64,000 nt of DNA, from assembly GCF_030065885.1 (NCBI RefSeq), contig NZ_JASJCS010000005.1, forward strand, positions 1 to 64,000, read 5' to 3'. The translations under genes were made by a program, and so were the position numbers. The DNA comes from Ilumatobacter sp. (lineage in GTDB: Bacteria; Actinomycetota; Acidimicrobiia; Acidimicrobiales; Ilumatobacteraceae). The notes under the pieces are model-generated. The model had not been told where the DNA came from and made no database searches. It saw nothing but the letters and a program-made list of their open reading frames with translations. This document shows, in pieces, positions 562 through 11,655 of this stretch (the first letter of the stretch is position 1; each line of letters opens with the position of its first letter).

Positions 562-571
562 ACGGTACTCT
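562..571. promoter_or_regulatory. Overlapping divergent -10 elements, candidate bidirectional leaderless promoter
   Basis: ACGGTACTCT: TACCGT on minus strand 7 nt before GTG 554, TACTCT on plus strand 8 nt before GTG 580; the two hexamers share the central TA. Confidence 0.55.
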
Positions 572-579
572 GCCGGGCC

Positions 580-1335
580 GTGACCGATTCGTACAGTTCT
601 CCCGGCGCAGGGTGGTTCCCCGACCCGCTCGGCCGTCACGAGCACCGGTACTTCAACGGCACCCAGTGGACCGCGGACGTCGCCGAGGGCGGCCAACGGT
701 TCGTCGACCCGCTCGGGACCGATCCCGGCCCTCGCCCCGGCGCACCGCCGGGCGCACAGCCGTTCCCGGGCGGCCAGCAGGCGCGCAACGGCCTCGCGAC
801 GGCGGCGCTCGTGTGCGGGATCCTCGGCATGCTGTTCGCCTGGATCCCGTTCATCTTCGTCGTCGGACTCGTCCTGGCGATCCTCGCGATCGTCTTCGGC
901 ATCCGGGGCCTTCGCAAGTCGAACGTCGTGCACGTGGGCCGCGGCCCATCGATCACCGGGATCGTCACCGGGCTGATCGGCCTCGCCCTGGCGGTCGTCG
1001 GGATCGCCCTGTCGGTCGTGCTGTACCGGGCCGTCGACGACTTCGCCAGCCCGGGCCCCGTGGTCACCGACGTTGCGTCGTGCGACGTCGACGGCGCCGT
1101 CGCAGTCGTCTCGGGCGAGCTGACCAACGCGAGCGCACGCACCCGCGACTACACGGTGTTCGTCACCGTCGACCGCGACACCGAGATCTTCACGCTCGAC
1201 TCGATCCCGGCCGGCGAGACCGTCGGCTGGACGGTGACGACCACCGCACCTCGCAGCGGCCGCGACTGCGACGTCGAGGTCGTCGTGCAGGGGCCGTTCC
1301 CGTTCGGCGTCGAGATCGACCCGATCGACCCCTGA
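580..1335 (+). CDS. DUF2510/DUF4190-type membrane protein
   Basis: VTDSYSSPGAGWFPDPLGRHEHRYFNGTQWT (DUF2510-like) followed by GLATAALVCGILGMLFAWIPFIFVVGLVLAILAIVFGIRGL transmembrane pair; GTG start inside longer ORF. Confidence 0.8.
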   Translation: MTDSYSSPGAGWFPDPLGRHEHRYFNGTQWTADVAEGGQRFVDPLGTDPGPRPGAPPGAQPFPGGQQARNGLATAALVCGILGMLFAWIPFIFVVGLVLAILAIVFGIRGLRKSNVVHVGRGPSITGIVTGLIGLALAVVGIALSVVLYRAVDDFASPGPVVTDVASCDVDGAVAVVSGELTNASARTRDYTVFVTVDRDTEIFTLDSIPAGETVGWTVTTTAPRSGRDCDVEVVVQGPFPFGVEIDPIDP

Positions 1336-9390: not shown

Positions 9391-10914
9391 TCAGCGGTGG
9401 AGGTCGGCGTCGGCCACCCTCGCGCGGTACCGGATAGTGAACACCGAGTCCCCCGAGAGGACACCACCGCGACCGAGCATGCGACCGCCCTCCCAGTTCG
9501 ACAGACCGAGCTCGGGCGTGCGGAGCGCGTACTGACCGTCGACCCAGCGGGTGAAGCCGTCGCCGACGAACGGCGCGTCGACCGTCGACCAGAACCGCTC
9601 GTGTGCGTCGGCCGACTCGCTCACCAGCGAGGCGACGAAGTGGGGGCTGTATTCGTTGCAGAGCCGGACGGCCTCGGCCGCGTCGTCGACGACGTGCAGC
9701 GTCGCCTCGGGTGAACCCTCCCACTCCCACTCGTGACCGAGGCTCTCGACGTCGATCGTCGACACGAACGGTTCGTCGTGGGTGCCGTCGGCGCGGACCA
9801 CCGCCGATCGGCGTGAGCGGTCGCCGTCGGGCACGTACGGCCCGGCAGCCTCGGTGACGTGGACGCGACCGTCGGCGCCCCGCTGCTCGCCGGCGGCCGT
9901 GACGGCGCCGAGGAAGGCAGGCACCAGCTCGGCCGCGCGCTCACGCACGATGCAGCAGACGTTGAGCGTGTTGCAGACCTTGCGGTCGAGCGAGTGCGTC
10001 ACCGTCGATGCGAACCGTGCGGTGTCGGCCGTCTCGTCGGCGACGACCCACGCTCCCCCGGTGCCGTGCAGGCTGACCGGCACACCTGCGTGGCGGGCGA
10101 CAGCGCCGAGTTGGGCGACGGCAGGGCCCGAGCCACGCGCAACTGCCAGCGAGAGGCGCTCGTCGGAGAAGAGCGCCCAACCGGCTGCGTGCGCCGCCGA
10201 GGTCACGAGGCTGATCGTGCCCGCCGGCAGACCCGCCGCCACGAGCGCCGGCTCGAGCGCGTGCCGCACGATCGCCTGGGCCGTGCCGAGCGCGTCGGAG
10301 CCGATGCGGAAGACGACCGTGTTGCCGGTGCGCACGACACCGGCGGCGTCGGCGAAGACGTTGGGGCGACCCTCGAAGACGAACCCGACGACGCCGAGCG
10401 GGGCGCGACGCGCTTCGAGGGTCCATCCGTCGTGTTCGACGTGTCGCTCGAGCAGGTCGCGGCCGGCGTCGAGCTCGGCCCACGCCCGCAACCCGGCCAC
10501 CATGTCGCGGCGCATCGCGTCACCGAGCACGAGCCGGGTCGTCGAGCGGTTGCGGGCTGCGGCCTGCTCGACGTCGGCGGCGTTGGCCGCAGCGATCGGC
10601 GCGAACGACTCGTCGGCTTCGAGCAGGTCGGCGAAGCGCTCGAAGAAGTCGGTGATCTGGTCGTCGGTGTTGTGCGCGAGGCCGGCGAACGCCTCGACCG
10701 CGGCGGTGACCGCACCCGTGGCGACGGCGTGTTCGGCTTCGGGAACGTGGAGCAGCGAGCCGCTGCTCGGGTCGACCACGAGCCGATCCCCGCTTCGGAA
10801 CGCGGCGGCGAGCTCGTCGGACACGGTCGCCACCCGGTTGCCGCCGTACACGATGGCCTGGCCGGGTGCCAGCTCGGACAGGACGCCGGCACGCGGCGCA
10901 GTGGAGGTCGACAT
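9391..10914 (-). CDS. ProA-like (glutamate-5-semialdehyde dehydrogenase family) aldehyde dehydrogenase, divergent, with N-terminal extension
   Basis: APLGVVGFVFEGRPNVFADAAGVVRTGNTVVFRIGS and HSLDRKVCNTLNVCCIV (catalytic Cys region), GRMLGRGG; 507 aa. Confidence 0.8.
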   Translation of the reverse strand: MSTSTAPRAGVLSELAPGQAIVYGGNRVATVSDELAAAFRSGDRLVVDPSSGSLLHVPEAEHAVATGAVTAAVEAFAGLAHNTDDQITDFFERFADLLEADESFAPIAAANAADVEQAAARNRSTTRLVLGDAMRRDMVAGLRAWAELDAGRDLLERHVEHDGWTLEARRAPLGVVGFVFEGRPNVFADAAGVVRTGNTVVFRIGSDALGTAQAIVRHALEPALVAAGLPAGTISLVTSAAHAAGWALFSDERLSLAVARGSGPAVAQLGAVARHAGVPVSLHGTGGAWVVADETADTARFASTVTHSLDRKVCNTLNVCCIVRERAAELVPAFLGAVTAAGEQRGADGRVHVTEAAGPYVPDGDRSRRSAVVRADGTHDEPFVSTIDVESLGHEWEWEGSPEATLHVVDDAAEAVRLCNEYSPHFVASLVSESADAHERFWSTVDAPFVGDGFTRWVDGQYALRTPELGLSNWEGGRMLGRGGVLSGDSVFTIRYRARVADADLHR

Positions 10915-10922
10915 GGACGCGA

Positions 10923-10932
10923 AGCGTACGCT
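10923..10932. promoter_or_regulatory. Palindromic shared -10 element, candidate bidirectional leaderless promoter
   Basis: AGCGTACGCT is self-complementary; gives TACGCT 6 nt before ATG 10939 (+) and TACGCT 8 nt before ATG 10914 (-). Confidence 0.6.
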
Positions 10933-10938
10933 GGCCCG

Positions 10939-11655
10939 ATGGGTGAGCCCAACGACGGCCGGAACGACGGCGACGACCGGTTCTACTTCCGCCAGCTGCT
11001 CTCGGGACGCGACTTCGCGGTCGGCGACCAGATGGCCGCACAGATGGTCAACTTCGTCTATGCGATCGGCGACCGCGCGACCGGTGAGTGCCTGCTGGTC
11101 GACCCGGCGTACGACCCCGCCGGGCTCGTCGAGACGGTCGAAGCCGACGGCCTGCGCGTCACCGGTGTGCTCGCCAGCCACTACCACGCCGACCACATCG
11201 GCGGTTCGATCATGGGCTACGACATCGCCGGCATCGCCGGGCTGCTCGAGCACGTCTCGTGCCCGATCCACGTCCAGCGCGACGAGGTCCCGTGGGTCGT
11301 GCGCTCGGCCGGCGTCACCGAGGACGTGCTCGTCGGCCACGACTCGGGCGACGTCGTCACCGTCGGCGACGTCGAGATCACGCTCGTCCACACCCCCGGC
11401 CACACCCCGGGCAGCCAGTGCTTCGAGGTCGGCGGCAAGCTCGTGTCCGGTGACACGCTCTTCCTCGACGGATGCGGCCGGACCGACCTCCCCGGCAGCG
11501 ACCACGCCCAGATGATCGAGAGCCTCAAGCAGCTCGCCAAGGTCGACGACGACGTCATCCTCTACCCCGGGCATCGCTACTCGCTGGCGTCGAGCGCCAC
11601 GATGGGCGCCGTCAAGCAGTCGAACTACGTCTTCGACCAGCTGTTGGGATCCTGA
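10939..11655 (+). CDS. MBL-fold metallo-hydrolase (glyoxalase II/ETHE1-like)
   Basis: SHYHADHIGG, HTPGHTPGSQCFEV, SGDTLFLDGCGRTDLPGSD motifs. Confidence 0.9.
   Translation: MGEPNDGRNDGDDRFYFRQLLSGRDFAVGDQMAAQMVNFVYAIGDRATGECLLVDPAYDPAGLVETVEADGLRVTGVLASHYHADHIGGSIMGYDIAGIAGLLEHVSCPIHVQRDEVPWVVRSAGVTEDVLVGHDSGDVVTVGDVEITLVHTPGHTPGSQCFEVGGKLVSGDTLFLDGCGRTDLPGSDHAQMIESLKQLAKVDDDVILYPGHRYSLASSATMGAVKQSNYVFDQLLGS

Follow-up and report, generated by a model that had tools for sequence, protein, structure and literature searches.

A palindromic −10 element as a probable shared promoter of two divergent, predicted leaderless genes in Ilumatobacter

Bidirectional promoters that arise from symmetry of the −10 element were described by Warman, Grainger and colleagues (Nat Microbiol 2021), whose findings we take from the accounts in PMC12825309 and PMC10268837. 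In this class, divergent transcription start sites (TSSs) lie 7–25 bp apart on opposite strands and opposing polymerases, as reported for E. coli, cannot bind together; TSS distances of 23 and 18 bp are both named as common in the bidirectional promoters of that species (PMC12825309). The TA-led leaderless genes of Actinobacteria, in turn, lack a Shine-Dalgarno sequence, have a TANNNT roughly 12 bp ahead of the start codon and make up about 20% of genes (Zheng et al. 2011, PMC3160421). Each of these phenomena is known already; for their combination, a two-way shared −10 with leaderless output on both sides, we found no description in the open-access literature searched, with its partial coverage.

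Here we consider a candidate for this combination in a 64,000-nt stretch of Ilumatobacter sp. DNA (contig NZ_JASJCS010000005.1; hereafter the window), located between a ProA-like (gamma-glutamyl phosphate reductase-like) gene and an MBL-fold hydrolase gene. As in the −10-symmetry promoters, its −10 hexamers overlap on opposite strands with their key bases coinciding, an arrangement in which two polymerases would exclude each other sterically, and the two TSSs would be separated by 23 bp if each lay 7 nt from its −10, or by 25 bp if transcription began at the start codons, which is within or next to the 23-bp class of the published promoters. The class found most often in E. coli and Salmonella is, however, the 18-bp one (TANNNTA), whereas the Ilumatobacter locus is predicted to be of the 23-bp type, with its register kept across the genus; moreover, the accounts in PMC12825309 and PMC10268837 do not mention leaderless products, whereas both products here are predicted leaderless mRNAs of conserved genes. 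The locus and the leaderless signal of a complete congener (G038, below) also agree with the published TANNNT picture of TA-led genes, although these are described as one-sided, with divergent sharing not discussed (PMC3160421), while the Ilumatobacter locus is two-sided. A further relative is the lysG-lysE pair of M. tuberculosis (PMC5648196), two divergent genes, again in an actinobacterium, whose promoters overlap and are accompanied by an inverted repeat, and one of whose transcripts is leaderless. Unlike the present locus, it has a 108-bp gap, a LysR-type regulator, leaderless output on one side and an inverted repeat with an 11-bp spacer. If the reading proposed below is right, the locus joins a symmetric bidirectional promoter to leaderless mRNAs, both conserved over the genus and re-evolved in relatives. 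It would then provide a natural test of the limit of promoter compression and of whether two genes that compete for one −10 are kept in balanced expression, and would point to a sequence-only route to bidirectional promoters in uncultured high-GC bacteria, in which a shared TANNNT can fix the start codons of divergent pairs.

The gap between the ProA-like and MBL-fold genes

Positions 10912–10941 read CAT GGACGCGA AGCGTACGCT GGCCCG ATG on the plus strand of the window (Table 1). The intergenic region offers no space for a Shine-Dalgarno leader toward either gene, and no Shine-Dalgarno-like string lies between −10 and start in the spacers GGCCCG (MBL side) and TCGCGTCC (ProA side). The two TACGCT hexamers overlap at offset +4 on opposite strands with TA in common, which is the symmetric register of a bidirectional promoter, and the first T of TANNNT stands 12 bp (MBL) and 14 bp (ProA) upstream of the start, within the genus-wide peak for TA-led genes. 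The first-pass annotation had reported the 24-bp gap, the palindrome and a TACGCT 8 nt and 6 nt before the two ATGs, and our re-reading of the sequence agrees with it throughout. Its further statement that the palindrome holds the only AT step needs rewording: the TA at 10927–10928 is the sole TA step, but another A/T dinucleotide, AA, occurs at 10922–10923.

Table 1. Features of the two divergent loci in the window (−10 hexamers and start sites are predictions)
Feature	Position	Strand	Remarks
ProA-like gene	9391–10914	−	507 aa; Aldedh family (aldehyde dehydrogenase)
Intergenic region	10915–10938		24 bp, between ProA-like ATG 10914 (minus) and MBL ATG 10939 (plus)
Palindrome AGCGTACGCT	10923–10932	both	two −10 hexamers TACGCT, central TA common; register ANNNTANNNT
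−10 hexamer TACGCT, ProA-like gene	10923–10928	−	8 nt before ATG 10914; predicted TSS 10914–10916
−10 hexamer TACGCT, MBL gene	10927–10932	+	6 nt before ATG 10939; predicted TSS 10939
MBL-fold hydrolase gene	10939–11655	+	238 aa; Lactamase_B; GloB-like, under equivalog cut-off
Histidine phosphatase gene	3–554	−	cut by window/contig edge; divergent partner at 562–571
Shared −10 ACGGTACTCT	562–571	both	same register as 10923–10932
TACCGT in ACGGTACTCT		−	7 nt before GTG 554
TACTCT in ACGGTACTCT		+	8 nt before GTG 580
DUF2510/DUF4190 gene	580–1335	+	divergent partner at 562–571

A canonical σ70 promoter with a −35 element is not found at this locus. Across ten congeneric species, no TTGACA-like −35 hexamer stands out above background 15–20 bp upstream of either −10: the best matches reach 2–3 of six bases in nine species and 4 of six in the tenth (L024), the same as at random window positions, and a TTGGG on the ProA side corresponds to conserved Pro-Asn codons of the MBL gene. 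Both neighbours of the palindrome are enzyme genes, with no regulator gene flanking it. With 113.6 bits against ProA (TIGR00407), the ProA-like protein stays below the curated cut-off of 317.45 and is not assigned to that family; it is nonetheless the best proA-type match in the source genome, as its counterparts are in three complete relatives, and a clear ProB is present in the source genome (405.7 bits; C172). Possibly, this protein is the family's true ProA in a diverged form.

Our preferred reading, which we consider highly probable, is that AGCGTACGCT is one shared symmetric −10 of a bidirectional promoter giving two leaderless mRNAs. What speaks for it is the sequence itself, which is conserved without change in the genus at nearly fixed spacings, along with the leaderless signal seen genus-wide and the finding that overlapping −10s in the family take two symmetric registers only. 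RNA polymerase with the housekeeping σ factor would bind AGCGTACGCT in either orientation. Read on the plus strand, TACGCT would place the transcription start on the A of the MBL ATG or a neighbouring base, and read on the minus strand on or beside the ProA-like ATG, so that both mRNAs would be leaderless and would have to be translated as such. The arrangement also fits an argument of economy, in that in 70% GC DNA this register yields two TANNNT boxes from four fixed A/T bases rather than six. Given that the central TA is common to both hexamers, one polymerase would be accommodated at a time. The mutually exclusive initiation proposed in the first-pass annotation is thus plausible in the steric sense, from the overlap of the hexamers, but should not be read as regulation, because none of the five bidirectional promoters tested in E. 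coli was active enough for competition to occur without activation, which suggests little competition at low activity (PMC12825309).

Conservation of the palindrome and the leaderless background

Taken alone, without conservation, the palindrome is weak evidence, because perfect 10-bp palindromes occur in the window at 0.0029 per bp and would be expected in about 4% of 24-bp gaps. To this extent AGCGTACGCT, which is found once in the whole 5.04-Mb genome, could be a chance feature of a GC-rich gap. Conservation refutes that reading, to which we assign a negligible probability. Homologues of the MBL and ProA-like genes were found across the Ilumatobacteraceae, the named relatives being Ilumatobacter and other Ilumatobacteraceae/Acidimicrobiia, and in 10/10 genomes of the genus the two genes diverge, with AGCGTACGCT unchanged at the locus. 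The spacing TACGCT-6-ATG to the MBL gene is the same in all ten; that to the ProA-like gene, TACGCT-8-ATG/GTG, is kept in nine, with 7 nt in the remaining one. Over these ten species all ten columns of the palindrome are invariant while the spacers on both sides vary (invariant columns 10/10 versus 1/14; Fisher p=5.6e-6), which places the palindrome beyond chance. The string is the sole genome copy in seven of the ten, and the extra copies in the other three do not look like shared divergent starts. The first-pass annotation had named orthologues that keep the gene pair and lack the palindrome as the observation that would count against it; none occurs among the ten genomes of the genus.

We then compared the locus with the leaderless genes of the genus at large, using 1.2 Mb of G038 and 0.4 Mb of a second congener (G019), with gene starts from a home-made gene caller that misplaced some of them and in one G038 scan missed the MBL/ProA locus itself. 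In G038 (1.2 Mb), the share of genes with a TANNNT 6, 7, 8 and 9 nt before the called start is 7.1, 5.6, 4.3 and 2.3%, respectively, compared with some 0.2% for other distances. A box of leaderless type was located close to a possible start in about 290 of 1044 genes; part of this number is background, as the same count with control patterns and spacings came to 39–113. TACGCT is a common hexamer among these boxes (18 of 292). Because TANNNT is so strongly enriched 6–9 nt before starts genome-wide, predicted leaderless genes are a main mode in the genus.

All NNN bases of the two hexamers are conserved, which is more than TANNNT strictly requires and was counted against a promoter-only reading. 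We dropped this conservation as proof of a second function, since one-sided leaderless −10s can be conserved nearly as well: the boxes of four window genes (IDH, PNP, FabI and DUF255; labelled by eye, and hand-picked with a bias to conserved ones) are kept in 8/9, 8/9, 7/8 and 5/7 congeners. In an unselected pairwise set of orthologous boxes from G038 and G019, 23 of 56 are identical and 28 have the same spacing. The fixed hexamers at the palindrome thus lie at the high end of normal and do not by themselves demand an extra function, because ordinary leaderless genes appear to keep theirs almost as well.

Registers of overlapping −10 elements across the family

To follow the locus beyond the genus, we examined 55 MBL loci across the family. 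Where a divergent partner of the MBL gene was recognised, it was of one of two kinds, the ProA-like gene itself or an oxidoreductase of the Gfo/Idh/MocA type (a Pfam assignment made for one locus, P0003), in the latter case with ProA further along. Overlapping −10s occur in two registers only, namely ANNNTANNNT (offset +4, 22 loci, 20 of them found by script and two, L019 and L223, by eye after the ORF/start filters of the script had missed them) and TANNNTA (offset −1, 8 loci). The former comprises ten loci of g1, further ones in g5, g7, g11 (2), g13 (1) and g14 (5), and L019 and L223, and the latter loci in g9, g11, g13 (2), g18 (2) and g22 (2). These are the two offsets at which a pair of A/T bases is used on both strands at once; geometrically, they equate to TSSs 23 bp (+4) and 18 bp (−1) apart. 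Perfect palindromy is unnecessary, because other loci pair unlike hexamers on the two strands, as in AGCGTAGGCT, ACCGTAGCGT and TAGCGTA. In genus g21, each gene of the MBL/ProA pair has its own, separate box, TACGCT-8 on the ProA side and TANNNT-6 on the MBL side, and through most of the family a TACGCT is retained 6–9 nt ahead of the partner gene, also at loci with separate promoters. Outside the genus, then, some loci do lack the palindrome, but they retain leaderless-type −10s, either in a shared, non-palindromic symmetric register or as separate boxes. This points to two TANNNT hexamers at leaderless distance as the feature conserved family-wide, a more general form of the first-pass idea of a symmetric two-way −10 with two leaderless mRNAs, which the 10/10 conservation, the nearly fixed spacings and these TANNNT pairs together favour.

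The same comparison bears on whether the palindrome could primarily be an operator for a dimeric regulator of one or both genes, its likeness to a −10 being secondary. Its perfect twofold symmetry and the invariance of its ten bases are what such a site might show, and operators often overlap short divergent promoters, as does the inverted repeat between lysG and lysE of M. tuberculosis (PMC5648196). We nevertheless regard this as improbable: the family loci just described drop the palindrome and yet keep TANNNT at leaderless distance on both sides, the TACGCT box recurs at ordinary leaderless genes, and the string is unique in most of the congeneric genomes. Neither recurrence upstream of co-regulated genes in the ten congeneric genomes nor a regulator gene among the locus neighbours was found. 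A single-target operator may overlap the shared −10.

It is also conceivable that one direction only is a real promoter, that the second TACGCT simply follows from the symmetry, and that the other gene is expressed with a leader from a promoter inside the opposite coding sequence. The divergent RNA of bidirectional promoters is often antisense and non-coding (PMC10268837), and a GGAGG is present at 10903–10907. A Shine-Dalgarno-led MBL start via this GGAGG was considered and rejected, its position not being conserved in congeners and its distance from the MBL ATG, more than 25 nt, being too great. Given that both hexamers and the MBL spacing are fixed in the genus, with the ProA spacing nearly so, and that genera with separated promoters (g21) keep a TANNNT of its own at leaderless distance for each gene, we give this one-directional reading very little credence.

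Returning to the shared promoter, a tree of the MBL proteins unites g1, g14, g5, g7 and g26 in one supported clade, nearly all of the ANNNTANNNT form and mostly as AGCGTACGCT, and requires at least five changes of the ANNNTANNNT state on supported branches; by this reconstruction, the register arose more than once. Outside the family, MBL genes often have a one-sided leaderless box. At one locus from another family (L312; f3, G229), the MBL gene and an unrelated divergent gene share a −10 in the +4 register, ACCCTACGAT. Judged by eye, the N-terminus of the latter resembles a ketopantoate-reductase-type protein; the locus is an apparent independent origin. In two g14 genomes (G100 and G111; L013 and L019), only a short Gfo/Idh remnant lies between the palindrome and ProA, a 108-codon frame in L013. 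With the direction of change being our assumption, such remnants plausibly show how ProA could have come under the shared promoter by deletion. It is tempting to speculate that selection maintains, in high-GC actinobacteria, a promoter class of its own to which these loci belong, with a shared −10 and two leaderless outputs, in which partners (Gfo/Idh, ProA-like) are exchanged around a constant core and the two enzymes are made in a ratio governed by the orientation of the polymerase. We offer this tentatively, as a possibility that we doubt more than we credit. If true, start codons would be held at a fixed distance from a four-base A/T core, with transcription start, translation start and choice of direction all within about 30 bp.

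A second shared −10 and further divergent pairs

The window contains a second shared −10 in the same register (562–571; Table 1). Its ten bases are identical in G054, G038 and G090, with both genes present, which places the design in four species. In G019 and G112, by contrast, no match to the DUF2510 gene was found in the stretch searched; the phosphatase box is kept there and the partner-side box is gone. Because the partner-side box is missing where the DUF2510 gene was not found, the comparison is a small natural control, in which the second half of the element appears to be kept for the partner gene.

In the 1.2 Mb of G038, divergent pairs with a shared +4 −10 also occur on C1 near 7852, 111520 and 556394, the last being the orthologue of window 562–571. 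A start-agnostic scan of the same 1.2 Mb for the register +4 layout gave 6 cases versus 1–5 in shuffled DNA, and because this excess is small, single cases outside the conserved loci are not proof. Several other divergent pairs in this sequence have back-to-back −10s at hexamer offsets of 12–16, with start codons 34–36 bp apart, which is possibly a preferred compact spacing.
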